A stretch of DNA of 36,296 nt, from NCBI GenBank assembly GCA_019913005.1, contig JAIOHL010000149.1:1-36296 (forward strand). Direction: 5' to 3'. The notes beneath the pieces were generated by a model. The model saw only the letters and a list, made by a program, of their open reading frames with translations. It ran no database searches and was not told the origin of the DNA. This stretch comes from Anaerolineae bacterium. GTDB lineage: Bacteria > Chloroflexota > Anaerolineae > Aggregatilineales > J027. The number at the start of each line of letters is the position of its first letter. The first letter of the stretch is position 1. The position numbers and the translations under genes are program-made. This document shows positions 4,702-30,572 of the stretch, one piece after another.

Positions 4702-4713
4702 CGTTGCCCGCCT

Positions 4714-5704: not shown

Positions 5705-6128
5705 GGGCTGAAGGAGGCGAATGAAGAAAACGAAGTCCTGACATGGGGATGAGGCAACTTCAAGGGTATCGAAGTTGCTGCGAAGGTGGGTAATCAGATG
5801 GAGACTCTGTTGGAATAATTGAGTGCCGAGGGGTTCGCGAAGATAGCCTGTGGCGCAAACTCGTTGGCGCCACAGGTCACGGGCCAAGCGCAGTCGAATC
5901 TACAAAGACAATCCCGCGTGTGATTTGGCATCGCACTCTACATGGGTGGCGTGAATTGGTTGTAGTTGACTAAACTGAGTTTTGATAAGTCAGGATACCG
6001 TATGCTTTCAACTAACGAGAGCTAAGGAAAGGTATCCCAACTATGCAGAGCGAACATGTTCCTCATGTGCTAGGTTGTGACTTGGACCCTCCAAGTCCAC
6101 CGTCCGATTCATCCGAACAAAGGCGTAA

Positions 6129-6233
6129 TCACTGACTGCTGGTGACGCATTCCCCGAGGTATGCCTCAATGACCTTCGGGTCGTTGACGATTTCTTCGGG
6201 AATGCCAAAAGCAATCGGTTTGCCAAAATCTAG
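6129..6233 (-). pseudogene. 3' remnant of a LivG-type ABC transporter ATPase
   Basis: The minus-strand frame from 6233 to the TGA at 6131-6129 encodes LDFGKPIAFGIPEEIV followed by NDPKVIEAYLGE and seven extra residues. This is the hallmark C-terminal end of branched-chain amino-acid transporter ATPases of the LivG type (VLDFGxxIAxGTPEEVxxDPxVIxAYLGE). Upstream, the similarity stops abruptly at about 6233, and no Walker or signature motifs remain. The fragment is about 34 codons of a gene lost by deletion or rearrangement. A longer open frame overlapping it is in another phase and is spurious. Confidence 0.75.
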
Positions 6234-13189: not shown

Positions 13190-14452
13190 ATGAAAATTAA
13201 GAACTGGGCCGGAAATTACGAATACAACGCACGTAATGTGTTTTATCCCACAACTATTGAGCAAGTGCAGTCCCTTGTAAAGCAACACAAGAAAATCAGG
13301 GTTATTGGGACGCGGCACTCGTTCAATGGGATTGCAGATTCGCCCGATACCCTTATTTCACTTGAGCGGTACCCATCATTCATCACCATCCATCACGCAC
13401 AAAGTAAGGTGTCGTTTGCGGCGAGTGTGACTTATGCTGAATTGTCTCGCACGCTTCATGCTGAGGGCCTAGCACTGCCCAATCTTGCCTCATTACCCCA
13501 TATCTCAGTGGTGGGAGCTTGCGCGACTGCAACACATGGTTCGGGGGATGGTAATCAGAATTTAGCGGCATCGGTATCCGGTATAGAATTTGTCACCGCC
13601 GATGGGAAATTGGTCAGATTATCACGGGAACAGCATGCTGAATTTTTTGAAGGGACGGTAGTTCATTTAGGTGGATTGGGCGTGGTCGTGAGTCTTACCC
13701 TAGATGTTCTCCCCGACTTTGAAATGACTCAAGTCGTCTACGAGCATCTTCCTATGGCGCAGTTAGAAGTCCATTTCAATGAAATTATGTCAGGTGTCTA
13801 TAGTGTCAGCCTATTCACTGATTGGCAAGGGGATCACATTAATCAAATTTGGTTAAAGCATCGCTCTGGTGATCCTGTTTCATTCAGTCAGACATCTAAC
13901 TTCTATGGTGCGACGCTTGCCACCCATCAGAAACACCCTATCGCTGGTTTTTCGGCTGAGTCCTGTACGGATCAACTTGGGATTGTGGGTGCATGGCATG
14001 AACGCCTACCTCACTTCCGCATGGATGCAGTTCCCAGTGCTGGCAATGAGTTGCAGTCCGAATATTTTGTCCCGCGTGACCATGCAATTAAGGCGATTCA
14101 GGCCGTTGGGACATTGAGGAGTCAGATAGCTCCCCACTTATTGGTGTCCGAGATACGCAGCATTGCTGCTGACAAACTGTGGATGAGTCCCTGTTATCAA
14201 CAAGACTCCATTGCCATCCACTTTACATGGAAACCAGATTGGCCGGCTGTAAGCCAATTGTTGCCCCGCCTAGAAGCTCAACTGGCAGTGTTTGGTGCTC
14301 GGCCCCATTGGGGCAAACTGTTTTCCATGTCGCCACACCGTATCCAATCGTTTTATCCGAAGCTACCACAGTTTCGAGAACTGCTTCAACACTATGACCC
14401 ACAGGGTAAATTCCGCAATCCTTTTCTGGAAGCCATCCTTTGGGGAGATTAA
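13190..14452 (+). CDS. FAD-dependent alditol oxidase (xylitol/sorbitol oxidase type)
   Basis: The protein has 420 residues, almost the length of Streptomyces AldO (418). The N-terminal PCMH-type FAD domain contains IRVIGTRHSFNGIAD. His43 corresponds to the histidine that carries covalent FAD in this family. Further family hallmarks are HISVVGACATATHGSGD (pyrophosphate-binding loop) and, at the C-terminus, HWGKLFSM and YDPQGKFRNPFL. Known members oxidise a terminal hydroxyl of alditols to the aldose and release H2O2; no signal peptide is seen, so it is cytoplasmic. GGGGGATT precedes the ATG. It is divergent from the sugar/polyol importer across 433 nt, suggesting that the importer's cargo is an alditol. 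The exact substrate is not predictable. Confidence 0.87.
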   Translation: MKIKNWAGNYEYNARNVFYPTTIEQVQSLVKQHKKIRVIGTRHSFNGIADSPDTLISLERYPSFITIHHAQSKVSFAASVTYAELSRTLHAEGLALPNLASLPHISVVGACATATHGSGDGNQNLAASVSGIEFVTADGKLVRLSREQHAEFFEGTVVHLGGLGVVVSLTLDVLPDFEMTQVVYEHLPMAQLEVHFNEIMSGVYSVSLFTDWQGDHINQIWLKHRSGDPVSFSQTSNFYGATLATHQKHPIAGFSAESCTDQLGIVGAWHERLPHFRMDAVPSAGNELQSEYFVPRDHAIKAIQAVGTLRSQIAPHLLVSEIRSIAADKLWMSPCYQQDSIAIHFTWKPDWPAVSQLLPRLEAQLAVFGARPHWGKLFSMSPHRIQSFYPKLPQFRELLQHYDPQGKFRNPFLEAILWGD

Positions 14453-14690: not shown

Positions 14691-15275
14691 TTGGATAAGT
14701 TGGGTTTACTGCTGGTTGCAGCCTACTGTGCAATCCAAGCGATCCGAACCACGAACTTGCTACTCTCTGTCCTCTGGTTAGCCAGTGTAAGCGCACTCAC
14801 AACGATCATTCTTTTTACGCTAGATGCGCCACAGGCAGCCGTCATCGAAATCAGCGTTGGGGCGGGTTTGGTCGCCGTATTACTCGTGTTCGCCATTAGT
14901 ATTGCAGGTGAAGAAACGCTTCACAATCACGATACCCTCTGGAAGAAGATGCTGCGCCGTTTCCCTCTCATTACCGTCCTGTTCTTACTCCTCTGGATTC
15001 TCCTGCCTCTGCCGGAAACGCAACCGGGTGCAAAGGATACTGCCACATTTAGCACAATCTTGTGGGAAGACCGCGCCCTTGATGTCCTGCTGCAAATCGT
15101 CATTATTTTCAGCGCGGTGTTAAGCCTATTAGGGCTGCTGGCCGATCAAAAATTGCCCGCTGCGGTGCAACATTATGCCGCGCCGCACCCGCTGAATGAA
15201 GCAGCATCGCCAACGGAGCAGGTGGCAATAGTGGACGATGAGCCGATTTTGGAACCGGAAAGGGAGTTGGCATGA
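14691..15275 (+). CDS. Group 4 hydrogenase membrane subunit, MbhD/MbhE-like fusion
   Basis: The protein has 194 residues. The start is TTG, preceded by TTAGGAGTG at good spacing. The first 80 residues hold three hydrophobic helices with the MbhD-type motif (ILFTLDAPQAAVIEISVGAGL). After a basic loop, two more helices follow, including RALDVLLQIVIIFSAVLSLLGLL, which resembles the MbhE pattern (RxxDTLxExxxxFxA). The tail (about 160-194) is hydrophilic. In Mrp and Mbh complexes these subunits belong to the ion-translocating module. It opens the operon and overlaps the next gene by 4 nt (ATGA). Assignment rests on motif shape and context; a fused MbhD+E is my reading. Confidence 0.7.
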   Translation: MDKLGLLLVAAYCAIQAIRTTNLLLSVLWLASVSALTTIILFTLDAPQAAVIEISVGAGLVAVLLVFAISIAGEETLHNHDTLWKKMLRRFPLITVLFLLLWILLPLPETQPGAKDTATFSTILWEDRALDVLLQIVIIFSAVLSLLGLLADQKLPAAVQHYAAPHPLNEAASPTEQVAIVDDEPILEPERELA

Positions 15276-15577
15276 CGGAGGATGAACTGACACTGGTCGG
15301 TGTGGGGATATTATTTGGGGTGGGTGTATATGGGCTGCTGTTGACCCATCACCTGATCAAGATTGTGATTGCGCTTCAGATTATCGGCAAGGCTGTGATT
15401 ATCGCGTTTGCGCTTGCGGGGACGATGAGTGAGCGGGTTCAATTGGCACAAAGCCTGATTGTAACTATCATCGTCGCCGATACGATGGTAGCCGTTATCA
15501 GTCTCGCATTGGTCATTCAAGTGAAACAGCGCCTCGGCACATTAGATGCTAGGGAACTGTCGAATCTGCGGAGGTGA
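15272..15577 (+). CDS. NuoK/MrpC-like membrane subunit
   Basis: The protein has 101 residues with three transmembrane helices, the usual size and topology for NuoK, MrpC and MbhG. Family-like segments are LLLTHHLIKIVIALQIIGKAV and AQSLIVTIIVADTMVAVISLAL, then a cytoplasmic KQRLGTLD tail as in MrpC. The position where NuoK carries its proton-path glutamate in helix 2 reads Gln here (ALQII), which looks more like MrpC than NuoK. It overlaps the preceding gene by 4 nt and is followed 3 nt later by the NuoL-like gene. Confidence 0.8.
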   Translation: MTEDELTLVGVGILFGVGVYGLLLTHHLIKIVIALQIIGKAVIIAFALAGTMSERVQLAQSLIVTIIVADTMVAVISLALVIQVKQRLGTLDARELSNLRR

Positions 15578-15580
15578 GCG

Positions 15581-17329
15581 ATGACAGCATGGTTGGTTGG
15601 TCTCACCATTGGGCTGCCGTGGCTAGGAGCATTGATCGTCTGGCGAATACCAGACCATTATCCACAACGGCAGCATGGGATCGCTGTGATCGCATCCCTC
15701 CTTACCGCAGCAGTTTCGATAGGGTTGCTGACCGCTCATTCAACCGAGGTGGCGCTGCGTCTGCACATCGGCGGCATATTTGGTGATTTTATTCTGGTGC
15801 CGGACGGTCTGGGTGTCCTGCTGGCGGCTATTGCGGCCATCATTGGCAGTCTGACTGTGATCTTCTCTGTCGCTTATATGGAGCATGAAGCCTGCCTGAA
15901 TCGCTACTATGCGCTGGTGCTGATTTTTATTGGCACGATGGCGGGTTTGGGGCTGGCGGGTAATTTGCTGTTGATGTTCTTCTTCTGGGAAATCACCGCC
16001 CTATGCTCCTATGCTCTTATCGCCTTCGACCATGATAATCCGGCGGCAGTGGCGGGTGGCTTAAAGGCACTGGTCATCACCCAGTTAGGTGGTATTGGCT
16101 TACTGATTGGGGCGCTGACGGCCTATGGACGCTTCGGCACAGATGAAATCGCGGTGTTGCTGGCACGGGCGGAAACCCTGCCCAAGACCGAATTAAACCT
16201 GATCGCGTTTAGTTTCTTAATCGCGGCAATGGCAAAATCTGCCCAAGTGCCTTTTCATAGTTGGCTGCCCGGCGCAATGGAAGCTCCCACCCCCATCAGT
16301 GCCCTGATTCACGCGGCCACGATGGTGAACGCGGGCGTCTATCTGCTGGCACGTTTTTATCCGGCCTTTGAGGATGTGACGGGCTGGACAACTGCCGTCA
16401 TGACGGTGGGGATCGTATCGGCACTCATGGCGGCACTCATGGCGTTGGTTGCGAATGATCTCAAGCGTGTCCTCGCCTATTCCACCATCAGCCAGTTAGG
16501 ATATATGGTTTTTGCGGTGGGGGCCGGTGGAATTTTTGCCAGTCAATTCCATCTATTAAGCCATGCCGTGTTTAAAGCGCTCCTGTTTCTTGGTGCCGGA
16601 GCCGTTATCCACAGCGTGGGGACACGCGATATACGGCAGATGGGAGGGCTGTGGCGCTCCATGCCGCAGGTCACCATCGCCTTTGTCATCGGCGCGATGG
16701 CGCTGGTAGGCATTCCCGGCATGAACGGCTTTTGGAGCAAAGAACTGATCCTAGAACGCGGGTTAGATGAAGCATCGCCCGTTTTTGTGGTTGGGCTACT
16801 GATTGGCGTCGGCCTTACCGCCTTATACACGCTCCGACTGGTCTGGTTGGTCTTTGCGGGCACTCCCCGATTTTCCGCTCAGGTACATGAAGCGCCCTCG
16901 GCCATGCGAATTTCATTGGGCATTTTGGCGGTTGGCTCCCTGACCACTTGGCTGCTGGCCTCGCCTTTAAGCAAGATGTTGGCTGAAACGCTGCCCTATC
17001 ACCATCTCCACTCCGAAACGACCCGTGATGTTATTTCAGATGTCATGGCCGCCCCGATTACGGCGCTGGCGCTTGTTTGTGTGGCGCTTGGCTTCCTGCT
17101 GTGGGGGCTTCACGATCGGCTCGGTTGGCTCATTGCCCGGTTGCAGCTTCTTAGCCAGATCGCCAGTCAAGATTTTGGCTTTGAGGCGCTCAATCGTGCC
17201 GTCATGCGCAGCACCAGTACCCTCGCCGAACGCCTGCGCTCGACCCAGACCGGAGAACTCAACTGGAATATCTGGGGGATTGTAGCGGGGCTGGTGGCGA
17301 TCTTAATTTATGTGGCGGTGGAGGTCTGA
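15581..17329 (+). CDS. Proton-conducting antiporter-like subunit (NuoL/HyfB-like)
   Basis: The protein has 582 residues and about 14 transmembrane helices. The charged residues of the antiporter-like proton channel are present: Glu137 in FFFWEITAL, Lys219 in AAMAKSAQVPFHSWLPGAM, Lys295 in NDLKRVLAYSTISQLGYM, and GFWSKEL further on. HAATMVNAGVYLLAR is the NuoL-type signature. It should translocate protons (or Na+) driven by electron transfer in the hydrophilic arm. It is the first of two antiporter-like subunits in this operon. The ATG follows GAGGTGAGCG, 3 nt after the upstream stop. Confidence 0.92.
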   Translation: MTAWLVGLTIGLPWLGALIVWRIPDHYPQRQHGIAVIASLLTAAVSIGLLTAHSTEVALRLHIGGIFGDFILVPDGLGVLLAAIAAIIGSLTVIFSVAYMEHEACLNRYYALVLIFIGTMAGLGLAGNLLLMFFFWEITALCSYALIAFDHDNPAAVAGGLKALVITQLGGIGLLIGALTAYGRFGTDEIAVLLARAETLPKTELNLIAFSFLIAAMAKSAQVPFHSWLPGAMEAPTPISALIHAATMVNAGVYLLARFYPAFEDVTGWTTAVMTVGIVSALMAALMALVANDLKRVLAYSTISQLGYMVFAVGAGGIFASQFHLLSHAVFKALLFLGAGAVIHSVGTRDIRQMGGLWRSMPQVTIAFVIGAMALVGIPGMNGFWSKELILERGLDEASPVFVVGLLIGVGLTALYTLRLVWLVFAGTPRFSAQVHEAPSAMRISLGILAVGSLTTWLLASPLSKMLAETLPYHHLHSETTRDVISDVMAAPITALALVCVALGFLLWGLHDRLGWLIARLQLLSQIASQDFGFEALNRAVMRSTSTLAERLRSTQTGELNWNIWGIVAGLVAILIYVAVEV

Positions 17330-17330
17330 T

Positions 17331-18794
17331 ATGGAGACGAACTCGGTAGCAACTTTGATTGCCCTGCCACTGGCCCTTTCTCCAGCAGCGTACATAGTTG
17401 AGCGCCTATATCGCAAGATTCATCCGGGTTGGCTGGCGCTGCTGATTTTGGCGCTGGCGTGGGGCGTTTTTGGTATAGCGGCCTATGAATTTGACCGGGA
17501 GGGTACGCTGACCTATCGTGTAGGCATGATGCAGCTACAACTCGACGGACTCAGCCTGTTTGCCTGCGGCGCAATTCTGACACTCGGTACATTGACGGTC
17601 ATCTATTCGTTGGATTATATGGCCGAAGAAGGCGCGGCGGACAAATATTATGCCCTCGTGCTGCTGCTGCTTGGCACCATGATGGGGTTGGTCTGCACCC
17701 GCGATCTGTTTAATCTGTGGGTCTGGTTCGAGGCAATGGCGATTTCAGCCTCGTTCTTGGTGGCGTTTTACCGTGAACAGCCAGCCTCGCTGGAAGCCGG
17801 GGTCAAGTATATTGTACAAAGTGCGCTTGGGTCGGCGTTTATCCTGTTGGGCATTGCCCTCGTGTTGGCCGAAACGGGCACGTTGGATTTGCAGGAAATC
17901 GCCCAATTAAACCAAGATTCGGCAATGTTGTGGGCGGCGGGTGGACTGTTTATCGCCGGATTTGGGGTCAAGATGGCGCTCGTGCCGTTCCATACGTGGC
18001 TGCCGGATGCCCATGCCCAAGCCCCCAGTGGCATCAGTGCCTTGCTGTCCGGGTTGGTCATCGAAGTGGCACTCATCGCCTTGCTCCGCGCCCTAACCTG
18101 TGTCGCATTTTCGTGGGGAACACTCCTGATTGTCTTTGGTGCAGTCAACATGCTGGTCGGGAATTTGCTGGCCCTGCGCCAGACCCAGATAAAACGCCTG
18201 TTGGCCTATTCTAGCCTTAGCCAGATGGGGTATATGGTATTCGGCATTGGCGTCGGCATCTATGCGCAAACATTGGATGGGTTTGAGGGCGGGCTATTCC
18301 ATTTCTTCAACCATGCCCTGATGAAAGGCCTCGCATTTTTGGCGGTTGGCGCTTTTATCTACAGCCTCGAGACTCATCAGCCCTTGCAAATAAGCGATTT
18401 GCGTGGTGCATCCCGGCGCTATCCGTATCTAGCATTAGCGCTCAGTCTAGCCTTATTGGGCCTCGGTGGACTGCCGCCGCTGGCCGGGTTTATGTCAAAA
18501 TGGCAGATTTTTGCAGCGGGTATCGCGGTACATGAGCCATTGATTACCCTGCTGGTCATCTTTGCGGCGCTGAACAGTGTTTTGTCGTTGGCCTACTATG
18601 CGCCCATTATCAATGTGCTCTATTCCCGGCAGGTCCAAGTTGAAATGGAGCAGGGTCGCGCTGTCCCACCCATGATGGGGCTGTCTTTGCTGGTGTTGTC
18701 GGTGGCGATTGTGGTCATCGGTGTGTATCCGGGGCTACTGCATGGTGCGCTTGAACCAGCCGCCCGCGTCCTGTTAACCGCGTTTGGAGGGTGA
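17331..18794 (+). CDS. Proton-conducting antiporter-like subunit (MrpD/NuoN/MbhH-like)
   Basis: The product has 487 residues from ATG 17331 (METNSV), chosen because GGTGGAGGT lies just upstream and only 1 nt follows the previous stop. The frame is open further upstream but would overlap the NuoL-like gene. The Proton_antipo_M domain has the expected residues: Glu134 in WFEAMAISASF, Lys214 in VKMALVPFHTWLPDAHAQAPSG, and Lys288 in QIKRLLAYSSLSQMGYM. The WLPDAHAQAPSGISALLSG stretch is typical of MrpD and MbhH. It forms the second ion-pumping unit of the complex. Confidence 0.92.
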   Translation: METNSVATLIALPLALSPAAYIVERLYRKIHPGWLALLILALAWGVFGIAAYEFDREGTLTYRVGMMQLQLDGLSLFACGAILTLGTLTVIYSLDYMAEEGAADKYYALVLLLLGTMMGLVCTRDLFNLWVWFEAMAISASFLVAFYREQPASLEAGVKYIVQSALGSAFILLGIALVLAETGTLDLQEIAQLNQDSAMLWAAGGLFIAGFGVKMALVPFHTWLPDAHAQAPSGISALLSGLVIEVALIALLRALTCVAFSWGTLLIVFGAVNMLVGNLLALRQTQIKRLLAYSSLSQMGYMVFGIGVGIYAQTLDGFEGGLFHFFNHALMKGLAFLAVGAFIYSLETHQPLQISDLRGASRRYPYLALALSLALLGLGGLPPLAGFMSKWQIFAAGIAVHEPLITLLVIFAALNSVLSLAYYAPIINVLYSRQVQVEMEQGRAVPPMMGLSLLVLSVAIVVIGVYPGLLHGALEPAARVLLTAFGG

Positions 18795-18795
18795 G

Positions 18796-19122
18796 ATGAA
18801 CGATTTGTTGTTGCAGCCGCCGGTTGCTTTTTTGATCTATCTTGGATTGGTCTGGGGCCTATCGGCGCTTGGGGGCTGGCTGGCTCCTGAAAAAGCGTCC
18901 GTCAATAAATCGAGCAGTTATGCCAGCGGTGAAGCACCCGCCACCCGTCCGGCGGTTCCCGGTTATCGGCCTTTTTTCGTGGTGGCCCTGTTTTTTGCCG
19001 TCGTGCATTTAGGGGTATTGGTAGCAGGTACAAGCACGCTGACCCCGATGGCGGGCATTTTTCTGACTGGGGTGATGGTGTCGTTATTGGCGCTGATTTT
19101 AGAGTCGAGGGAGGCAGCTTAA
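18796..19122 (+). CDS. NuoA-like (complex I subunit 3-like) membrane subunit
   Basis: The product has 108 residues from ATG 18796 (MNDLLLQPP), which follows TTGGAGGGTGAG and lies 1 nt past the upstream stop. There are three hydrophobic helices. The loop after the first helix (SSYASGEAPATRPAVPGYRPFF) resembles the NuoA loop (YECGxxPxxxxxxRFxxxFY), but without the conserved Cys. The following helix contains VHLGVLVAG. In complex I this subunit sits where the peripheral arm meets the membrane, and Mbh has an equivalent in the same gene position. Assignment is good from order and loop pattern, less so from sequence alone. Confidence 0.72.
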   Translation: MNDLLLQPPVAFLIYLGLVWGLSALGGWLAPEKASVNKSSSYASGEAPATRPAVPGYRPFFVVALFFAVVHLGVLVAGTSTLTPMAGIFLTGVMVSLLALILESREAA

Positions 19123-19123
19123 G

Positions 19124-19597
19124 ATGACATGGCAGCGGGTGGTGGATGATTTTAGAACATGGGCAAGAGTCAACTCGCCTTGGGTGGTGCATTTTAATAC
19201 GGGTTCGTGCAACGGCTGTGATATTGAAATCTTGGCAACCCTGACCCCGCGTTATGATGCCGAGCGGTTTGGGGTCAAGTTGGAAGGCAGCCCACGCCAC
19301 GCCGATGTGTTGATTTGCACCGGGCCTGTTACACGGCAAGCACGGGATCGCCTGCTGCGCGTGTATGAGCAGATGCCAGAGCCAAAATTTGTGATTGCGG
19401 TGGGGTCATGTGCGATCTCCGGTGGGGTGTTTCAGGGGTGTTACAACGTTATCGGGCATATTGACGAAGTGATCCCGGTAGATGTCTATATTCCCGGTTG
19501 TCCCCCCCGCCCCGAAGCCATCCTCGACGGCGTAGTAAAGCTGTTGGGCCACCTCAAAAACCCGGTGCTTGAAGAAACCATACAGGAGGCAGGTTGA
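19124..19597 (+). CDS. [NiFe] hydrogenase group 4 small subunit (NuoB/MbhJ/EchC-like)
   Basis: The protein has 157 residues. The four ligands of the proximal [4Fe-4S] cluster are Cys29 and Cys32 (TGSCNGCDIE), Cys96 (VGSCAISGG) and Cys126 (PGCPPRPEA). Complex I NuoB has adjacent Cys-Cys, whereas here the pair is CxxC as in energy-converting hydrogenases. There is no signal peptide, so the arm faces the cytoplasm. It passes electrons from the ferredoxin-like subunit to the nickel-iron site. It lies 1 nt after the NuoA-like gene, and its stop overlaps the next ATG by 1 nt. Confidence 0.94.
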   Translation: MTWQRVVDDFRTWARVNSPWVVHFNTGSCNGCDIEILATLTPRYDAERFGVKLEGSPRHADVLICTGPVTRQARDRLLRVYEQMPEPKFVIAVGSCAISGGVFQGCYNVIGHIDEVIPVDVYIPGCPPRPEAILDGVVKLLGHLKNPVLEETIQEAG

Positions 19598-20043
19598 TGG
19601 ATACGCAAGAGGCGTTAAAAAGCGCCGAAACATTGCTGACCGACTATCCCAGCACGCGCCCCGAAGAGAACCGTCTGGATGTGACGCTTGCGCCGGAAAA
19701 TCTGAGCGCAGTGGTCAGCAATCTAGTCGCCGCACGCTGGGGCTATCTGATGGCGATCACAGGATTGGATCAGTTAGCACTGGATCAACTTGAAATTCTC
19801 TATCATTTTGGCGCTGGGGCGGCAGTCCTAACGCTGCGAATCTTACTGCCGCGTACTCCAATTCCAAGCGTGGAAAGCATTTGTCCCATCATCCCCTATG
19901 CCAATGTCTATGAGCGCGAATTGGGCGAAATGTTTGGGGTGGAATTTAGGAACAGCCCTAATACGGATCGGCTGTTCTTGCCAGATGACTGGTGCAGCGA
20001 TGTTTATCCTCTCCGTAAAGACGCCGTATTGAACGAGGAGTGA
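19597..20043 (+). CDS. NuoC-like 30-kDa subunit (MbhK/HycE N-terminal-like)
   Basis: The product has 148 residues from ATG 19597, which overlaps the upstream stop by one base (TGATG) and follows CAGGAGGCAGG. The complex I 30-kDa domain is recognisable from NVYERELGEMFGVEFRNSP and DRLFLPDDW near the C-terminus (typical ExxxxDMFGIxFxGHPxxxRxxLPxDW). It is a structural partner of the large subunit without redox centres. In HycE and some other hydrogenases this domain is fused to the large subunit; here it is separate, as in Mbh. Confidence 0.92.
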   Translation: MDTQEALKSAETLLTDYPSTRPEENRLDVTLAPENLSAVVSNLVAARWGYLMAITGLDQLALDQLEILYHFGAGAAVLTLRILLPRTPIPSVESICPIIPYANVYERELGEMFGVEFRNSPNTDRLFLPDDWCSDVYPLRKDAVLNEE

Positions 20044-20044
20044 A

Positions 20045-21235
20045 ATGAAATTGGATACTACTGTACCACAGCGTTTTGTCGTACCAATTGGGCCACAGCA
20101 TCCCGCCCTCAAGGAACCCGGTCATTTTGAATTTACGGTGGACGGTGAACAAGTGACAGGGGCATCCGTGCGCTTGGGGTATGCCCATCGCGGCATCGAA
20201 AAAGCCACCGAGGGACGCAATTGGGTCCAAAATCTCTACCTCTTGGAGCGTATCTGCGGCATCTGTTCACATGTCCATGCCACCGCCTACTGTCTGGGTG
20301 TGGAGAGATTAGCTGGAGTGACAGCCCCGCCCCGCGCCCAAGCCATTCGCCTGTTGGTGGCTGAATTAGAGCGCATTCACAGCCATTTGCTGTGGTTGGG
20401 TGTGGCGGCCCATGAAGCTGGCTTCGATACCTTGTTCATGTATTCGTGGCGTGACCGCGAAACCGTGATGGATATTTTAGAGGCGCTCACGGGTAATCGG
20501 GTTAATTATTCAGCCAATCTGCTCGGCGGTGTCAAATTTGATCTCACTCCTGAATTGACCGATAAGATTTACAAGGGACTTGAGCTTTTGGAGGAGCGTA
20601 CCCATCAATATGTGGATGTGGTCACGTCGGACGCGACCCTGCTGCAACGCACTCGTGGTGTGGGCGCTACCACTCGTGAGCAGGCGGAGGAGTTGGGTCT
20701 GGTGGGACCAACCGCGCGGGCATCGGGGGTAGAACGTGATATTCGCACCGAAGCGCCTTATGCCGCCTACCCTGATTTTCCGGTGCAGGTCGTGACAGCA
20801 ACCGCTGGTGATTTGGAAGCGCGTTTTGTGGTGCGGCTGCAAGAGTTATTTGAAGCGTATCGCCTCATTCGTGCCGTACTGGAAAAATTACCCCCCGGTG
20901 ACTTGCAGGCCCGAATGCCACGTAAAATCAAGCCTGCCGAGACCGTTAGCCGCGTTGAAGCGCCACGTGGGGAACTGTTTTATTTCATCAAAAGCAATGG
21001 CACCGATCAGCCAGAACGCATCAAAGTGCGAACCCCGACCTTGTGTAATCTAGCGTCGGTCTGTGTGCTGGCGATAGGCAGCCAACTGGCGGATGTGCCA
21101 ATGATCCTAGCGGGGGTTGATCCGTGTTTTTCCTGTAATGATCGCATGGTGACGGTCTATTCCGGCGATACGGCTCATACCCAGTGGACATGGAAACAGT
21201 TGCGACAATATGGCATTGATTACTATCGAAGGTGA
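20045..21235 (+). CDS. [NiFe] hydrogenase group 4 large (catalytic) subunit (NuoD/MbhL/EchE-like)
   Basis: The protein has 396 residues. Both nickel-iron ligand pairs are intact: Cys71/Cys74 in ERICGICSHVH and Cys361/Cys364 in DPCFSCNDR. Complex I NuoD has lost these, so this is a true hydrogenase. After Arg367 follow 29 residues (MVTVYSG...YYRR). HycE is known to be cut after the Arg in the same DPCxxCxDR-M context by HycI, and a HycI homologue ends this operon. GVKFDLT and REQAEELGLVGPTARASGV are further group 4 signatures. It catalyses proton reduction to H2 or the reverse. GAGGAGTGAA precedes the ATG. Confidence 0.96.
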   Translation: MKLDTTVPQRFVVPIGPQHPALKEPGHFEFTVDGEQVTGASVRLGYAHRGIEKATEGRNWVQNLYLLERICGICSHVHATAYCLGVERLAGVTAPPRAQAIRLLVAELERIHSHLLWLGVAAHEAGFDTLFMYSWRDRETVMDILEALTGNRVNYSANLLGGVKFDLTPELTDKIYKGLELLEERTHQYVDVVTSDATLLQRTRGVGATTREQAEELGLVGPTARASGVERDIRTEAPYAAYPDFPVQVVTATAGDLEARFVVRLQELFEAYRLIRAVLEKLPPGDLQARMPRKIKPAETVSRVEAPRGELFYFIKSNGTDQPERIKVRTPTLCNLASVCVLAIGSQLADVPMILAGVDPCFSCNDRMVTVYSGDTAHTQWTWKQLRQYGIDYYRR

Positions 21236-21237
21236 AG

Positions 21238-22161
21238 ATGAACACCATTCAAGATTTGTTCACCCTAATGTTTTTCCCCGGTGGTTTGTTCGTGCTGGCG
21301 CTGGGTATGAGTTATGAGTGGGTAGACCGCAAATTGATGGCACGGGTACAAAATCGTGTCGGCCCACGCTGGTTTCAGCCCTATGCCGATATTGCCAAAC
21401 TCCTTGTCAAAGAGGAGGTGATTCCGGCAGACAGCAACCGCCTGCTATTCATTGGCTTGCCCATCTTGGCACTGGCAGGGGCATTGACCGCCGCACTCTA
21501 TGTGCCGCTGGCGGGGTTCGACCCATTGTACAGCTTTAAGGGCGATTTGATTGTGGCGCTCTATCTGTTAAGCCTGCTTACCGTTTGCACCGGACTGGCG
21601 GGGGCAAATACGACGGATCGCTTTTCATTGGTGGGGGCGACCCGTACTTTGACCCAATTGTTTTCGTATGAAGCGCCCTTCCTGTTGGCGATGCTTGGTC
21701 CGGCGGTGGTGGCACGTAGCTGGCAAATCAACGAGATTATTGCGGACGCTGATGGGCAATGGCTGTTGATTGTCCAGCCCGTTGGTTTTGTGGTGGCTTT
21801 GATTGGGCTGCTGGGCAAGCTGGAAATCGCCCCATTTAATGCGCCGGAAGCCGAAACCGAAATCGTCGCGGGCGCGTTGACCGAATACAGCGGGCGGGGC
21901 TTGGCGCTGTTTCGACTGGGGCGACATGTTGAGCTAATCGTCGGGTTAACGATGGTCGCGGCGTTTTACATGGGCGGGGTCAGTGGACTGCCGTTGTTTG
22001 TCCTAAAAACGCTGCTGCTGCTCCTAATCCTCGTGGGGATTCAATCACTAGTGGCACGGTTACGGATAGATCAGACGGTTGGGTTGTGGTGGCGCTGGGG
22101 CGTCTTGTTGGTGCTGGCCCAATGGCTGGTACTGGTTATCTGGGAAGGAGTACAGGCATGA
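21238..22161 (+). CDS. NuoH/MbhM-like membrane anchor subunit
   Basis: The product has 307 residues and about eight transmembrane helices. ATG 21238 follows GAAGGTGA; GTG 21232 is an in-frame alternative that overlaps the previous stop. Hallmarks are YEWVDRKLMARVQNRVGP with RWFQPYADIAKLLVKE (cytoplasmic loop 1), and EIAPFNAPEAETEIVAG with ALTEYSGRGLALF (the acidic E-channel loop). In complex I and Mbh this subunit carries the charged funnel that links electron transfer to ion movement, and those acidic residues are retained. It overlaps the next gene by 4 nt. Confidence 0.94.
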   Translation: MNTIQDLFTLMFFPGGLFVLALGMSYEWVDRKLMARVQNRVGPRWFQPYADIAKLLVKEEVIPADSNRLLFIGLPILALAGALTAALYVPLAGFDPLYSFKGDLIVALYLLSLLTVCTGLAGANTTDRFSLVGATRTLTQLFSYEAPFLLAMLGPAVVARSWQINEIIADADGQWLLIVQPVGFVVALIGLLGKLEIAPFNAPEAETEIVAGALTEYSGRGLALFRLGRHVELIVGLTMVAAFYMGGVSGLPLFVLKTLLLLLILVGIQSLVARLRIDQTVGLWWRWGVLLVLAQWLVLVIWEGVQA

Positions 22162-22577
22162 AACGTCATACCCTGTTGCAATCCGCCATTCAGTCGCTCT
22201 TTCGGCGGGCAGCCACACAGCGTTATCCAGCCGAACGAACCCCCACCCCGGAACGCTTACGGGGCACGCTTCATTGGAAGCCTGAAGGCTGTACCGGATG
22301 CTGTCTATGTAGCAAAGAATGTCCCGCCAACGCGATTGAGATTATCACAATTGACAAGGCCGCCAAGAAGTTTGTCGCACGCTATCACGCGGACCGCTGC
22401 ATTTATTGTGGGCAGTGTGTGGTGAATTGTCGTTTTGGCTGCCTAACAATGTCGCCGGAGGAATGGGAGAATGCCGCGCTCCACAAACAGGTGTTCACGG
22501 TCTACTATGGAGATGCCCCCGATGTCGAACGAGTCTTGGAAGGATTTGTTGCACCAGAGCCTGCATCCAACTCCTGA
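22158..22577 (+). CDS. Ferredoxin-like 2x[4Fe-4S] subunit (NuoI/MbhN/EchF-like)
   Basis: The product has 139 residues from ATG 22158 (MKRHTLLQS), preceded by GGGAAGGAG. The longer upstream frame overlaps the NuoH-like gene and is not needed. Two complete cluster motifs are present: Cys45, 48, 51, 55 (CTGCCLCSKECP) and Cys81, 84, 87, 91 (CIYCGQCVVNC). This is the entry point for electrons, most likely from soluble reduced ferredoxin, because no formate dehydrogenase, CO dehydrogenase or NADH-oxidising module is encoded nearby. Confidence 0.93.
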   Translation: MKRHTLLQSAIQSLFRRAATQRYPAERTPTPERLRGTLHWKPEGCTGCCLCSKECPANAIEIITIDKAAKKFVARYHADRCIYCGQCVVNCRFGCLTMSPEEWENAALHKQVFTVYYGDAPDVERVLEGFVAPEPASNS

Positions 22578-23040
22578 CCATCCCCTAAAAACCGCGATTG
22601 TAGGGATTGGGAATGGGATGTATCGGGATGACGGAGTGGGCGAACGGATTGCCACACGCCTATCAGCGCGACTGGTAGGATGCGACACCGTTCAGATTAT
22701 CGCCGCCGGAATCGCCCCTGAAAATTGTACCGGGTTGCTACGGCGGTTTGAACCCGATTTGGTCATTCTCATAGATAGTGCGAATTTTGATGCACCACCG
22801 GGCACGGTGCGCTGGATAACCCCTGCCGACATTGAGGGCATCAGTGCCTCCACCCATACTCTGCCGCTGTCCCTGTTGGCAAATTATCTCGAAACGAGCC
22901 TCCATTGCCACATCGGATTACTGGCTATCCAACCCCTTGATGTGTCATGGGGGGAAGGTATTTCGTTGCCTGTGCAGATTGCGGCAGATGCGCTTATTGA
23001 AGAACTGGTGAAGGCTTTGCATCAGGACACCCTCAGTTAG
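22522..23040 (+). CDS. Hydrogenase maturation endopeptidase (HycI family)
   Basis: The product has 172 residues from ATG 22522 (MSNESWKDLL), with GGAG 9 nt upstream. It overlaps the ferredoxin gene by 56 nt; ATG 22507 and 22513 are alternatives. The nickel-sensing residues of the family are visible: Asp36 or Asp37 in GNGMYRDDGVGERI, Asp85 in LVILIDSANFD, and His112 in STHTLPLSLLANYL. It removes the C-terminal extension of the large subunit once nickel is inserted. Its presence supports the hydrogenase being functional. No hyp accessory genes are in the window. Confidence 0.93.
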   Translation: MSNESWKDLLHQSLHPTPDHPLKTAIVGIGNGMYRDDGVGERIATRLSARLVGCDTVQIIAAGIAPENCTGLLRRFEPDLVILIDSANFDAPPGTVRWITPADIEGISASTHTLPLSLLANYLETSLHCHIGLLAIQPLDVSWGEGISLPVQIAADALIEELVKALHQDTLS

Positions 23041-23288: not shown

Positions 23289-23747
23289 ATGCCCACCGGA
23301 GAAGAGACATCACCTTCGTCTACCCAAGTAGAAGTGATCAGTGATTTATTGCACCAAATCACTTGGGGTATTCGGTTGGATCAACTTGGCACATGGTCAA
23401 AAGCACTGCGTGGCATGGCGCAACTTGATTTACATATTCTCAAACTCATCGCGGAACGGCCCGATATTATTTTGAAGGAAATATGCAGTGAACTTCATAT
23501 TCCCAATAGTACCCTAACCAGCGCAATCAATCGTTTGGAGGAGCGAGGATTGCTGAACCGAGTGATTAGTCGCCGGGATCGCCGTTCCTACGGGTTAGCA
23601 CTGACGACCAAAGGCTGGGAGATTAAGGCCGAACATGATCGAGTGGATCAAATGATTGCCACTAAGGTGATTAAGGCTTTAGAAGGGGACGAAGAAGTGA
23701 CGACCCTGACCACCCTCCTAAGCAAAATTGTGCAGCATTTTGAGTAA
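23289..23747 (+). CDS. MarR-family transcriptional regulator
   Basis: The protein has 152 residues, the standard MarR size. The winged helix is clear: LKEICSELHIPNSTLTSAIN (about 61-80) is the DNA-reading helix pair, followed by the wing RLEERGLLNRVISRRDRRS and LTTKGWEI. Dimerisation helices flank it. MarR repressors typically bind phenolic or lipophilic compounds and control efflux. Palindromes overlapping its own promoter (23209-23233) suggest autorepression of the gene and the ABC transporter that follows 81 nt later. GAGGTG precedes the ATG. Confidence 0.92.
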   Translation: MPTGEETSPSSTQVEVISDLLHQITWGIRLDQLGTWSKALRGMAQLDLHILKLIAERPDIILKEICSELHIPNSTLTSAINRLEERGLLNRVISRRDRRSYGLALTTKGWEIKAEHDRVDQMIATKVIKALEGDEEVTTLTTLLSKIVQHFE

Positions 23748-23828
23748 AGCAGTTTTCATTTAGAGAAAAAATCCCCACATCGCCGCTATCTCAACTGCCA
23801 CCGGGGGTATCCATATGGAGGTAGTGCA

Positions 23829-24533
23829 ATGATAGTGCTAAAGCATGTGTCCAAGAAATATCAGATGGGCGCGGTGACCGTTACAGCCCTAAATGATGTG
23901 TCATTGAATATCGAAGAGGGGGAATTTGTAGTGGTCTTGGGGCCATCGGGGAGTGGTAAGACAACGCTTCTCAATATGATTAGCGCCCTAGACACCCCCA
24001 CTGAGGGTACTATTACCGTCGCTGGGCAAGACATCACCGCCATGAGCCGCTTAAAACAATTTGACTTCCGCCGTAACACAGTCAGTTTTATCTTCCAAAG
24101 TTTCAACCTCTTCCCCAGCCTAACTGCCGAGGAAAATGTCCAGTTTGTGCTCGACATGCACTACAAACGGGGTATCCAGTCCACTGCAAAAGCGGTGCTT
24201 GATAGTGTGGGCCTCGGCCTCCGCTATCAGCATTTCCCGCACGAATTGTCGGGTGGCGAGCAGCAGCGTGTGGCAATTGCACGGGCGCTGGCGACTGGCA
24301 ATCCTGTTTTGTTAGCCGATGAGCCGACAGGTGAATTAGATTTCAAGACGGGTGTCCAAATTTTGCAGCTCTTACGATCCCAAGCAGGCAACGGACGAAC
24401 GGTGCTGGTTGTGACCCACAACCGTGAAATTTCACGGATTGCGGATCGCGTGATTGAATTGAGCAGCGGTGAAATTGTGCGAGATGGTGCGCCAGAAGCG
24501 GGTAAAGCGCCAATTGCTGAGTTGCATTGGTAA
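23829..24533 (+). CDS. ABC transporter ATPase (MacB/LolD-like)
   Basis: The protein has 234 residues. It has Walker A GPSGSGKTT (about 39-47), Q-loop FIFQSFNLFPSLTAEENV, signature LSGGEQQRVAIARAL, Walker B VLLADEPTGELD and H-loop VVTHN. The ADEPTGxLD and QSFNLxPxLTAxENV wording is typical of the MacB/LolD/FtsE group, which works with FtsX-type permeases and often moves lipoproteins, peptides or drugs outward or transmits force. GGAGG lies upstream of the ATG. It pairs with the permease gene that begins 10 nt later. Confidence 0.93.
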   Translation: MIVLKHVSKKYQMGAVTVTALNDVSLNIEEGEFVVVLGPSGSGKTTLLNMISALDTPTEGTITVAGQDITAMSRLKQFDFRRNTVSFIFQSFNLFPSLTAEENVQFVLDMHYKRGIQSTAKAVLDSVGLGLRYQHFPHELSGGEQQRVAIARALATGNPVLLADEPTGELDFKTGVQILQLLRSQAGNGRTVLVVTHNREISRIADRVIELSSGEIVRDGAPEAGKAPIAELHW

Positions 24534-24543
24534 AGAAGGTGAA

Positions 24544-27003
24544 ATGATGAACCTCAAATTTTGGCTTAAGTGGTCTTATCGTGATGCCAAAGAACGCTGG
24601 TTACAAGTGCTGGCGATTGCCGTAATTCTCGCTTTGGGCACAGGCGTCTACAGTGCTTTTGGCAAGCAAAAAGAATGGCGCATCGAATCGCTGGACAAAA
24701 GTATGGCGATGCTTGCCATGTACGATCTCCAAATGGAATTGACAGAAGGGAGCTATCTCGAAAGCACCGCACTCGAATCGGCACTGGCTGATATTGAAGG
24801 GGTCGAAGTGGTTGAAACACGCTTATTGGTTCCAACCCTTGTGGACGCTTCTAAAGAAGGTGAAACGATCCTCTATCCGGGTCGGCTCATTGGTGTGGAC
24901 TTGTCGGACGGCGGCCCGCATATCAGCAGATTGAATATCACCGAAGGGTCAGGGCTAACCGAAGCCGATGCTGGCACAAACAAAGTCATTATGGACTATC
25001 TATTTACCAACTACCGAGAACTGTCGCCGGGGGATAGGGTCAAAATCACAGGGGACATCGAACTGGATTTCGTTGGGCGCGGTCAAATCCCCGAAAACAT
25101 GATGATCATACCGGGTACGGGCGGTTTCATGGAAAACGAAAATACGTTTGCCGTGATGTATATGTCGCGTGACACAGTTCAACAGATTAGCGGACGAGAG
25201 GGGCTAATCAACAATGCCGTCCTTCTATTGGATAAGGGCGCCAACCCTGATGCCGTGATCCACGACATCAAGCAGGTAATGGCTACCCAATTTGCCGACA
25301 CAGGCTTCAACCTGACCCAAAAGGAAGACGATCAGGTTTACAACGCGATGTATACTGACGCACGAGGCGATCAACGTTTTTGGAACATTGTCGCGGGGCT
25401 GTTCCTTATCGGGGCGGCAATGGCAACCTTCAACCTCGCGGGTCGTATTGTAGAATCGCAGCGCCGCCAAATTGGAATTGGGATGGCATTAGGTATCAAG
25501 CGGCATTGGCTGGCTTTACGGCCAATCCTGTTGGGTCTGCAAATCGCGGTGGTGGGAACTATTTTGGGATTGGGATTTAGCTATCTATTCGGGCAAGCGC
25601 TTCTGGGGATATTCAAAGATTTTTACCCGCTTCCCTACTGGGGCAGGCTCTTCTATATTGAGAGCTATCTCAGAGCGTCTGTTCTAGGCGTTCTGGTGCC
25701 TATTATTGCCACGCTGTTTCCAGTTTGGCGGGCCGTGCGTGTCCAGCCAGTGGACGCCATTCAGACGGGTTATCTGGTGGCAAAAGGGGGTGGCCTGTCC
25801 TATCTCATGGAATATGCTCCCCTCCCCGGCAGGAGTTATATGCAAATGCCATTCCGCAATATTTTGCGTTCCCCTTGGCGCAGTTTGATGACGATACTCG
25901 GCGTCTCGATTGCCATTATGCTCTTGGTGGCGATGGCGGGCCTGCTGGATACCTTCAACCGCACGATTCACCGAGGCAGCGATTTCTATATGGAGTCCTA
26001 TCCTGATCGGCTGGATGTGGTGTTGGATAATTTCTATCCGATCAATAGTCAACATATCACTGACTTGCAGCGGCTTGAACAAGACGGGCGGCCTCTATTT
26101 AGTAAAGTGGATGTGGGCCTCGTCATAGCGGGTGAATACGTCAATTCGGACGATGAGGAAATGTTGGCAGTGATTGAGTTGTACGATCCCGCTACCGCCT
26201 TATGGCAGCCAACGCTGGAGGAGGGTAATTTGCCTGATGGTGGACGTGGTATTGTCATTTCCGAGAAAGCCGCCCAAGACCTCGGCGTAAAGGTGGGTGA
26301 AACGGTTCAGATTTCCCTCCCCGTGAGAGAAGGGCTGTTGTCCTATCGGATGGAAGAAATGGCTATTCCAGTGATCGGTATTCACGACAATCCGTTACGG
26401 ATGCAAGCCTATATGAGCCTGAATCAAGCCGAACTGATGAACATGGCAGGTTTGGCAAACACCGTAACCCTCTATCCAGCCGAGGGTGTCACCACAGCGG
26501 AAATGCGGCGTATGATGTTTGCCCAGCCGGGGGTTGCATCCGTGCAGGCCGTTAAGGATATTGCCCAGAGTTTTGAGGAGTCTATCGAAATCTTTAATAC
26601 GGTACTCATCATGATTCAGGGGGTCGTCGTGATACTGGCCTTTCTCATCGCCTTCAATTCCACCACCATCAATGTGGATGAACGGATGCGCGAGATTGCC
26701 ACCATGTTTGCCTTTGGGCTGCGTATCCGCACCGTCACCCGGATGCAGGTCGTCGAAAATGTCGTCACTGGGCTATTCGGTACTATTTTGGGCGTTGTTT
26801 TCGGCTATATGGTGATTGTCTGGATGATGGAAAGTCAAATCAAAGACATGGTGCCGGACATCCAGTTCAATGTCTATATCGCCTCTGGGACGCTGTTGAC
26901 AGCGGCTGTGTTAGGTATTCTCGTGGTGGGGCTAACCCCCTTGTTAAGCATTCGTAAGATGCTCCGAATGGATATCCCTTCCACGCTGCGGGTCATGGAA
27001 TAG
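24544..27003 (+). CDS. FtsX-type ABC permease with two FtsX core domains
   Basis: The product has 819 residues from ATG 24544 (MMNLKFWLKW), preceded by AAGAAGGTG. The longer frame would overlap the ATPase gene. Layout: one membrane helix (about 20-38), a large extracytoplasmic domain (about 45-270), then a three-helix FtsX core ending in AVRVQPVDAIQTG. A second helix, extracytoplasmic domain and FtsX core follow, ending in LLSIRKMLRMDIPSTLRVME. This duplicated architecture is that of the large MacB-like/DUF214 permeases, not of MacB itself. The substrate is unknown; MarR control suggests efflux of a toxic or lipophilic compound. Confidence 0.88.
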   Translation: MMNLKFWLKWSYRDAKERWLQVLAIAVILALGTGVYSAFGKQKEWRIESLDKSMAMLAMYDLQMELTEGSYLESTALESALADIEGVEVVETRLLVPTLVDASKEGETILYPGRLIGVDLSDGGPHISRLNITEGSGLTEADAGTNKVIMDYLFTNYRELSPGDRVKITGDIELDFVGRGQIPENMMIIPGTGGFMENENTFAVMYMSRDTVQQISGREGLINNAVLLLDKGANPDAVIHDIKQVMATQFADTGFNLTQKEDDQVYNAMYTDARGDQRFWNIVAGLFLIGAAMATFNLAGRIVESQRRQIGIGMALGIKRHWLALRPILLGLQIAVVGTILGLGFSYLFGQALLGIFKDFYPLPYWGRLFYIESYLRASVLGVLVPIIATLFPVWRAVRVQPVDAIQTGYLVAKGGGLSYLMEYAPLPGRSYMQMPFRNILRSPWRSLMTILGVSIAIMLLVAMAGLLDTFNRTIHRGSDFYMESYPDRLDVVLDNFYPINSQHITDLQRLEQDGRPLFSKVDVGLVIAGEYVNSDDEEMLAVIELYDPATALWQPTLEEGNLPDGGRGIVISEKAAQDLGVKVGETVQISLPVREGLLSYRMEEMAIPVIGIHDNPLRMQAYMSLNQAELMNMAGLANTVTLYPAEGVTTAEMRRMMFAQPGVASVQAVKDIAQSFEESIEIFNTVLIMIQGVVVILAFLIAFNSTTINVDERMREIATMFAFGLRIRTVTRMQVVENVVTGLFGTILGVVFGYMVIVWMMESQIKDMVPDIQFNVYIASGTLLTAAVLGILVVGLTPLLSIRKMLRMDIPSTLRVME

Positions 27004-27062: not shown

Positions 27063-28241
27063 TTATGCTCCTACTTGGTAACTTGCCATCAAAATTCGGC
27101 TGACCTCCGGGCGTGTAAATTCTGTGGGCAGCATCTCACCGCGCGACAACATCTCCCGTACCTGTGTGCCACTTAAGGCGATATGGTCTTCTTTACCATG
27201 TGGGCAGGATTTGAGGCTGACCACGCTACCACACTTTTTGCAGTAAAAGGTGTGTTCAAAAAACAGCGGGGTAATGCCGATTTCCTCCGGGGTAAATTGG
27301 TCAAAGATGTGATGGGCATCATAACTGCCATAATAGTTCCCGACCCCTGCATGGTCACGACCTACAATGAAATGAGAACAGCCATAATTTTTGCGGGCAA
27401 TGGCGTGAAAAATGGCCTCACGCGGGCCAGCATACCGCATGGCAGCCGGGAACGCGCTCAAGACTACCCGATTCAGCGGATAGTAGTGATTGACAATTGC
27501 CTGATAACTTGCCACCCGCACTGCTGCTGGAATATCATCCGATTTGGTTTCACCCACCAGCGGATGAATTAACAGGCCATCCACGATTTCCAGTGCCGTC
27601 TTTTGAATATATTCATGAGCACGATGAATCGGGTTGCGGGTCTGGAAACCGACCACCCGCCGCCACCCGCGTTCGCTGAAAATAGCCCGTGTTTCCGATG
27701 GCGTGAACCGAATATCAGGAAATTCCTCGTGAACACGCTGGGGTAAATTGAGGACGTGGACATCACCTCCCAGCAACACCGACCCCTGTTTATAGAGACG
27801 CGCTACGCCGGGGTGGGCCACTTCCGTTGTGCGATAAACCTGCTGCGCCTCGACTTGGGGGTCATAGGTATATTTATCACTGATGTCCAAAATAGCCAGC
27901 AGACGGGTTTTCCCATGTACCTGCTCGGTCAGCACGGCGGATTGCCCAATCTTCAGATTTTCGGCAAGGCTCTCATCCACCGCCAGCGTCACCGGAATTG
28001 ACCACGCCAGCCCATTCGCTAGGTGCATGGTCTGAACCACTGATTGATAATCGGCCTGATTCATGTATCCTGTTAGCGGACTCAGTGCCCCCACTGCGAT
28101 CATTTCAAGGTCAGCCAAATTCAAATCATTGAGTGGGATTTGGGGCAGGGTGGCGGCGCGTTCAAGGGCGGCTTCACGTTCTGCCCCATCCAAAAGACGG
28201 TTGATGAGTGTCCCCCCATGTGGTGCGATAAGTTTAGACAT
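27063..28241 (-). CDS. sat: Sulfate adenylyltransferase (ATP sulfurylase)
   Basis: The protein has 392 residues, normal for the monomer-type Sat family (unrelated to CysDN). It has an N-terminal PUA-like region, then the ATP-binding motif QTRNPIHRAHEYIQK and the second hallmark GRDHAGVGNYYGSYDAHHIF. Near the C-terminus FYCKKCGSVVSLKSCPH is the Cys pattern common in bacterial Sat. It makes APS from sulfate and ATP. It is the last gene of the sulfate operon and overlaps cysC by 8 nt. The operon context (cysH, cysC, sulfate importer) makes an assimilatory role far more likely than a dissimilatory one. Confidence 0.96.
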   Translation of the reverse strand: MSKLIAPHGGTLINRLLDGAEREAALERAATLPQIPLNDLNLADLEMIAVGALSPLTGYMNQADYQSVVQTMHLANGLAWSIPVTLAVDESLAENLKIGQSAVLTEQVHGKTRLLAILDISDKYTYDPQVEAQQVYRTTEVAHPGVARLYKQGSVLLGGDVHVLNLPQRVHEEFPDIRFTPSETRAIFSERGWRRVVGFQTRNPIHRAHEYIQKTALEIVDGLLIHPLVGETKSDDIPAAVRVASYQAIVNHYYPLNRVVLSAFPAAMRYAGPREAIFHAIARKNYGCSHFIVGRDHAGVGNYYGSYDAHHIFDQFTPEEIGITPLFFEHTFYCKKCGSVVSLKSCPHGKEDHIALSGTQVREMLSRGEMLPTEFTRPEVSRILMASYQVGA

Positions 28242-29489: not shown

Positions 29490-29500
29490 GGTTAGTTCTC

Positions 29501-30565: not shown

Positions 30566-30572
30566 TTTCGAT

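Follow-up and report, generated by a model that had tools for sequence, protein, structure and literature searches.

We analysed contig JAIOHL010000149.1 of an Anaerolineae bacterium (assembly GCA_019913005.1, a draft genome of 7.6 Mb in 365 contigs, 96% complete); this contig of 36,296 bases is referred to in its entirety as the window, and its genome as the host genome. On the forward strand, between positions 14691 and 23040, lie 11 co-directional open reading frames (ORFs) whose neighbours overlap or are 1-3 bp apart, forming one tight operon. We conclude, with a probability that we put at roughly 0.78, that it encodes an energy-converting [NiFe] hydrogenase of group 4 whose membrane arm resembles that of complex I and which would act as a ferredoxin-driven, H2-evolving ion pump.

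The ORFs were assigned by profile searches against Pfam and NCBIfam, and start sites were refined from the sequence (Table 1). It can be seen that the gene order is J(MbhD/E-like)-K-L-N-A-B-C-D-H-I-hycI, and that ten of the 11 core and membrane subunits of complex I are covered, NuoM being the one absent. The NuoJ-like gene also gives a match to MbhD (PF13244) of 22.4 bits, which is below the cut-off, and among solved structures it matches 6U8Y_D (7e-7) and 6CFW_D (6e-5). The NuoN-like ORF is open from 17310, the tabulated start being the likely one, and the NuoI-like gene starts at an ATGA overlap with the gene before it. The CNGC motif of the NuoB-like subunit is one that we take to be of the hydrogenase type. 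A preliminary description of this DNA, made from the letters alone, had proposed a group 4 [NiFe] hydrogenase with two antiporter-like subunits and a retained NuoA-like subunit. Protein families and nickel-ligand motifs agree with the first of these claims, the profiles recover an added NuoL-like and a NuoN/MbhH-like subunit, and the NuoA-like gene, which scores below its cut-off, occupies the same position in the operons of relatives.

Table 1. Features of the operon and of its surroundings in the window.
Feature	Position	Strand	Evidence
NuoJ / MbhD+E-like membrane subunit, 194 aa	14691..15275	+	PF00499 40 bits (cut-off 33.2)
NuoK / MbhG-like subunit, 101 aa	15272..15577	+	PF00420 52 bits; PDB 6CFW_G, 3RKO_K
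NuoL-like antiporter subunit, 582 aa	15581..17329	+	PF00361; TIGR01974 428 bits, over cut-off
NuoN/MbhH-like antiporter subunit	17331..18794	+	PF00361 231 bits; TIGR01770 236 bits, below cut-off
NuoA / MbhI-like subunit, 108 aa	18796..19122	+	PF00507 20.7 bits, below 23.3 cut-off
NuoB / MbhJ-like small subunit, CNGC motif	19124..19597	+	PF01058 124.5 bits
NuoC / MbhK-like subunit	19594..20043	+	PF00329 88.8 bits
[NiFe] large subunit (NuoD / MbhL-like)	20045..21235	+	PF00346 219 bits + PF00374 51 bits
NuoH / MbhM-like membrane anchor	21232..22161	+	PF00146 236 bits; acidic E147, E198, E210, E218 conserved
NuoI / MbhN-like, two [4Fe-4S] motifs, proposed ferredoxin docking subunit	22158..22577	+	Fer4 families
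HycI-type hydrogenase maturation protease	22522..23040	+	TIGR00142 100 bits; TIGR00072 95.8 bits
FAD-binding D-arabinono-1,4-lactone oxidase-like protein	13190-14452
MarR-type regulator, ABC ATPase, MacB/FtsX-like permease	23289-27003
Sulfate-assimilation block	27063-36189	-

The large subunit carries two pairs of nickel ligands, C71xxC74 (in RICGICS) and C361xxC364 (in DPCFSCNDR), and ends in a 29-residue C-terminal extension past the latter motif. These four cysteines, together with the NuoB, C, D, H and I homologues, place the enzyme within [NiFe] group 4 in the broad sense. Among solved structures, it comes closest to the large subunits Pyrococcus MbhL (6CFW_L, 2.8e-84) and Escherichia coli HycE (7Z0S_E, 3.6e-78). 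The cognate protease is encoded in the same operon, its score lying below the TIGR00142 cut-off of 119.1 and above that of the TIGR00072 superfamily model (47.45). Both ligand pairs, the extension and HycI had been read correctly in the preliminary description, and hyp genes, which it had suggested looking for elsewhere in the genome, were found as well: hypA, B, F, D and E are grouped on host contig C21, and there is an ORF that we take to be HypC-like from its MCLGVPGQ start.

The pairing of extension and protease is not universal in group 4. Among 111 comparison loci with at least 2.2 kb of downstream sequence, the window being left out, 81 had both, 18 neither, 11 the extension only and one hycI only; nine of the 11 extension-only loci are of the multi-phylum group described below, in which a divergent hycI may be missed. 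All three loci of the formate hydrogenlyase (FHL) type have extension and HycI, and all six Ech loci lack the extension and have a single antiporter-like subunit. One further locus (L107) gave a HycI-model match without an extension and was left out of the count as it has less than 2.2 kb downstream. Support for co-loss of extension and hycI was not significant (median p 0.25 in a sign test on four independent pairs taken from starred branches). Some group 4g enzymes are described as naturally lacking the extension (PMC7294309).

The genes of the membrane-bound hydrogenase Mbh are ordered D-(E)-G-H-I-J-K-L-M-N. Pyrococcus Mbh (group 4d, 6CFW), which provides the closest solved large subunit, matches the order of the window operon. 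The preliminary description had stated that the operon follows Mbh D-N without the MrpE/F/G-like genes (MbhA-C). This order stood, but D and E are represented by one NuoJ-like gene and, since the first gene is this single NuoJ-like (MbhD+E-like) one, a separate MbhF (MrpB) is missing too; neither MrpE/F/G-like nor MrpB-like genes were detected in the operon or in the 20 flanking ORFs scanned, and a NuoL with a predicted lateral helix HL is added. With complex I the operon shares homologues of A, B, C, D, H, I, J, K, L and N, and the NuoL model matches NuoL-type chains; it differs in having the NiFe ligands and the CNGC motif in NuoB, and in lacking NuoM and NuoE/F/G. Ech (4e) and FHL (4a) have in common with the window operon the subunits B, C, D, H and I that make up the core of group 4. 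Unlike Ech, however, the window enzyme has two antiporters and the extension, and unlike FHL it has NuoC and NuoD as separate, unfused genes and no FdhF/HycB-like gene in the operon. The statement that no electron-donor module is encoded also held, as none was found in the operon and the 20 flanking ORFs scanned matched no family of hydrogenases, of CO or formate dehydrogenases or of NuoE/F/G. Judged by the genes present, we rejected membership of Mbh, Ech, FHL or complex I.

Other published enzymes of group 4 are also comparable. Those described from Saganbacteria include Mrp antiporter-like subunits (PMC6349859), and a complex I-like group 4 hydrogenase with helix HL and two antiporters from the Asgard lineages Freyarchaeia and Atabeyarchaeia (PMC11291895). 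The window operon shares this Asgard-type design, with a NuoL-like subunit whose HL is predicted at low confidence and two antiporters (L and N). As far as the published description goes, the Asgard complex differs in being archaeal, in having a full-length HL and in its synteny with Hdr, a group 3 hydrogenase and ATP synthase, whereas the window operon stands alone. It is the nearest published relative in design, and the design of the window operon is thus not unprecedented. In Anaerolineae, a NiFe hydrogenase cluster (COG3260-3262) has been noted in genome bins and in UNI-1 and tied to the H2 production of isolates (PMC4877987). Our literature search, judged mostly by title and the start of the abstract, returned no title or abstract on this complex in Anaerolineae.

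In a careful tree of 71 large subunits, for which the bootstrap had not settled, the 25 members of what we term clade A formed one Anaerolineae clade (support 100/99), apart from the Ech, FHL and Mbh sequences; four Ech sequences formed their own clade (100/99). The large subunit of another host hydrogenase (L061), which sat on a branch of ten changes in a first tree, was left out. Deep forks had no firm order. Holding the three complex I-like types (A, B and C) as one clade was not rejected by the approximately unbiased (AU) test (p-AU 0.222), and forcing clade A together with Mbh, with which it does not group in the best tree, gave p-AU 0.079 with only one named Mbh sequence, so that the tree does not firmly reject Mbh membership. 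Judged by this tree, the large subunit appears to belong to no characterised subgroup among the Ech, FHL and Mbh reference sequences used; the outcome that the preliminary description had named as refuting it, a place in a known, fully characterised subgroup, did not occur. That description had also called the enzyme intermediate between Mbh/Ech hydrogenases and complex I, which is apt for its subunit content and was not upheld as a statement of ancestry, given the unsettled deep branching and the two AU values.

As to the class, HydDB 4g is a fitting candidate label, suggested by related lineages that are labelled 4g in papers. Endomicrobiaceae are found among the related sequences in the tree; an Endomicrobium enzyme has been labelled 4g (PMC11257099), as have enzymes of Omnitrophota and Cloacimonadota (PMC8542988). 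HydDB describes 4g as loosely clustered, uncharacterised and putatively ferredoxin-coupled, with an 'undetermined role' (PMC5037454), and it has been called polyphyletic (PMC11291895). The homologues in Endomicrobiaceae and Omnitrophota, 49-55% identical, resemble the window in combining a group 4 large subunit with antiporter-like subunits, and their full loci hold J, K, B, C, D, H and I, mostly a detectable A, and L, M and N. The window clade differs from them in its separate position (100/99), its two antiporters, its short HL region and in NuoK Q36/D70 in place of E36/E70.

Large subunits at least 64% identical to that of the window were found in 28 of 61 genomes (the host and 60 relatives), two of the copies being fragmentary. 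When 298 genomes were drawn evenly from the class, the host among them, 28 had a large subunit of at least 65% identity and 17 one of 47-54%. Eight of these 17 were looked at, and all eight end exactly at DLC(I/V)AC(A/V)DR and lack an extension. Seven of these eight extension-less Chloroflexota loci have at least 2.2 kb of downstream sequence, and hycI was detected in none of the seven. These loci (L176-L181, L183 and L184) lack the usual proline at the end of the large subunit. Among the best 80 of 592 confirmed loci in a scan of named genomes, the cultured Leptolinea tardivitalis and Longilinea arvoryzae have the same 11-gene order, their large subunits falling inside the Anaerolineae clade (100/99), and homologues about 49-55% identical occur in Omnitrophota, Elusimicrobiota, Bacillota, Planctomycetota and others; these form the multi-phylum group.

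The NuoL-like subunit was modelled with AlphaFold (22 sequences, mean predicted local distance difference test (pLDDT) score 84.3), and a Foldseek search with the model gave complex I/NDH-1 NuoL-type chains as best matches. The model places transmembrane helix (TM) 15 at 481-509, helical pieces at 515-529 and 535-554 and TM16 at 560-581; hydropathy likewise puts the last TM at 560-582. The NuoL of L131, a relative with three antiporters, was modelled for comparison (19 sequences, pLDDT 84.6); here TM15 lies at 479-503 and TM16 at 582-605, with helical pieces between 511 and 577, one of them a helix at 533-577. The TM15-TM16 spacing is therefore 50 residues in the window NuoL, about 28 fewer than the 78 in L131. 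Hydropathy-derived linker lengths were unreliable (failing or misleading for L095, L104, L145, L179 and L183, and without a value for many), so that the distance between the SK[ED] motif and the C-terminus was used together with the two models; it gave no value for the NuoL of host complex I. This distance was 196-208 in 47 of 51 measured two-antiporter loci (56 in all) and 211-246 in all 26 measured three-antiporter loci (33 in all). The four exceptions are L043 and L173, which are one operon fetched twice, L109, with a distance of 221 and a short hydropathy linker of 55, and L150, whose contig begins inside L so that M may be out of view. Because the loci are related and partly duplicated (L044 is the same locus as L094), the link between length and antiporter number is a correlation across few independent events. 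That the lateral helix differs in length according to how many antiporter-like subunits are present, FHL having one and complex I three, has been published (PMC9474812), and the window NuoL fits this series as a two-unit case. An ORF for the NuoL of host complex I (L171, G000:C168, 7755-10160) is long, at 801 residues from the first start codon.

Antiporter number varies across the wider family. Three antiporter-like genes are present in 29 of 46 multi-phylum loci (as M-L-N-J-K-A-B-C-D-H-I or J-K-L-M-N-A...), the others being mostly short contigs or cut near the operon, with L145 and L165 showing two, and in four of the eight extension-less loci. Two, L and N, are found in 50 of 59 clade A loci, a set from which the window was left out and in which at least two operons are present twice. 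Four clade A loci show one antiporter: L050 and L103 are cut by a contig end, and L054 and L092 have N only. These last two belong to separate subclades, each with support (97/93 and 98/91), which suggests that L was lost twice; no clade-type L was found elsewhere in the genome carrying L054 (G054), the best match being 216 bits and 37%. Of five loci with no antiporter, L066, L110, L112 and L115 are cut or at contig ends. The fifth, L052 (G018:C39, 8796-11620), with a large subunit 71% identical, lies well inside a 126-kb contig and consists of B, C, D and I only; there was no membrane-arm gene within about 8 kb, and neither a membrane-arm subunit nor hycI in a 20-kb stretch. In L043 (G060:C161, NuoL at 4235-6148) the large subunit is 78% identical to that of the window and the other subunits are close too, but NuoL is only 37-41% identical and groups in a quick NuoL tree with the complex I NuoL of the window's genus (Shimodaira-Hasegawa-like approximate likelihood ratio support 99, 56% identity). 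A complex I NuoL, with its long helix region, appears to have replaced the native one in this operon. This tree also joins L145, an archaeal locus with two antiporters and a distance of 199, to L155 and L162, which have three antiporters and distances of 225 and 220 (support 95), hinting at more than one shortening of NuoL. Since the family spans one to three antiporters and shows at least one apparent uptake of a complex I NuoL, a complex with two antiporters could just as well have arisen by reduction.

Residues of the putative ion channels are strongly conserved. In L, E137, K219, H244, K295, H324, H328, K332 and K387 are invariant across 22 aligned clade sequences; in N, E134, K214, K288, H324, H328, K332 and K390 occur in 53 of 53 clade sequences and H221 in 51; and in H, E147, E198 and E210 are present in 57 of 57. 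The TM2 and TM3 glutamates of NuoK are functionally important in complex I. In the NuoK-like subunit, Q36, K40 and D70 lie within membrane helices, and position 36, which aligns with the TM2 glutamate E36 of E. coli NuoK, is Q in 48/48 clade sequences, E in 39/39 of the multi-phylum group and K in 3/3 of the extension-less type. D70, also found in 48/48 clade sequences, is replaced by E in the other two groups and stands three residues ahead of the complex I TM3 glutamate in the alignment.

We infer the ferredoxin donor, H2 evolution as the main direction, the pumped ion, the tethering of L to N and cleavage by HycI in the following scheme. Reduced ferredoxin, for example from pyruvate:ferredoxin oxidoreductase, a candidate ORF for which is present in the host, would pass electrons to the NuoI-like subunit and on to the NuoB-like cluster, and protons would be reduced to H2 at the NiFe site. 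The acidic residues and loops of the NuoH-like subunit, with the NuoA/J/K-like subunits, would couple this reaction to movement of H+ or Na+ through N and L. The lateral helix of NuoL would tie L to N, and we propose that it is shortened because NuoM is absent. Hyp proteins would assemble the NiFe site and the operon's own HycI would trim the C-terminal extension.

Several observations weigh against this reading. From residue 511 on, covering the HL region and TM16, the NuoL model has pLDDT of about 38-60; the NuoA-like and HycI scores lie under the cut-offs of their specific models; Q36 in place of the NuoK TM2 glutamate means that part of the canonical proton route differs; and L052 may encode a group 4 enzyme that is soluble, or may be a locus in decay. 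No biochemistry was found for any clade member in the literature surveyed, hydrogenase transcription in Anaerolineae bins is described as relatively weak (PMC4877987), and one study reports no definite hydrogenase in the Anaerolineaceae genome CAMBI-1 (PMC5481317). Finally, the host encodes three further [NiFe] large subunits, of which one lies close to HdrA-like genes and another close to NuoF-like genes, and an anaerobic CO dehydrogenase (catalytic subunit on contig C69, TIGR01702, 577 bits), so that other electron sources or directions are possible.

One such direction is the reverse, in which the enzyme would mainly take up H2 and use the ion gradient to reduce ferredoxin for biosynthesis or other electron-consuming reactions. 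HydDB tabulates Ech as an enzyme that is physiologically reversible (PMC5037454), and the three further host enzymes could themselves handle H2. However, H2 is a fermentation product of described Anaerolineaceae (PMC5481317, PMC4877987) and no carbon-fixation gene was seen among the 20 flanking ORFs scanned, and we consider this mode unlikely. Still less probable is a dedicated donor, namely an unlinked CO dehydrogenase or formate dehydrogenase feeding the hydrogenase as in CO- or formate-respiring group 4 systems: the CO dehydrogenase on C69 would provide for it, but no CooS, FdhF or HycB-like gene lies in the operon or the 20 flanking ORFs, and group 4c is listed as lacking the extension that the window enzyme has (PMC7294309). 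We favour the ferredoxin-driven, H2-evolving pump over both.

The suspicion that the window, as an entire contig of a 365-contig draft, is an assembly artefact or foreign to this genome can be dismissed on synteny, as each of the four genomes searched from the same genus has the whole operon in the same order, with a large subunit 87-97% identical; the MarR gene was found next to it in three of the four and the upstream oxidase in two of the four. On sequence grounds we take the operon to be a real, conserved, widespread and uncharacterised energy-converting hydrogenase of a known general kind. Around it, the flavin adenine dinucleotide (FAD)-binding oxidase-like gene lies just upstream, and downstream the MarR gene is followed by those of an ATP-binding cassette (ABC) ATPase and a permease. 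The reverse-strand sulfate-assimilation block comprises ATP sulfurylase, adenosine phosphosulfate (APS) kinase, phosphoadenosine phosphosulfate (PAPS) reductase and a sulfate-type ABC transporter, and also holds tetrapyrrole methylase and CbiX-like genes. On a further contig (L063, G000:C220, 2981-4567) a NuoI-like ORF of 528 residues, with a long Ala/Pro-rich C-terminal tail containing repeated motifs, adjoins a 615-residue NuoD-like ORF that lacks the nickel ligands.

It has long been asked how pumping is divided among the antiporter modules of complex I. We tentatively suggest, as an idea with somewhat less than even chances, that the Anaerolineae clade and its relatives form a natural modular series of H2-evolving complex I analogues with N, L+N or L+M+N under one type of NiFe head, in which the NuoL helix is shortened where M is absent, NuoL has been repeatedly lost or replaced by that of complex I, and the change of Glu to Gln in NuoK marks a rewired proton route. 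If this is true, the series would allow the number of ions moved by each antiporter module per two electrons to be addressed directly, as a family with one, two and three modules that includes the cultured L. tardivitalis and L. arvoryzae would make the ion/electron ratio measurable against module number. For the Anaerolineae themselves, which are described as abundant in anaerobic digesters (PMC5481317), the operon names a probable H2-producing, energy-conserving enzyme.

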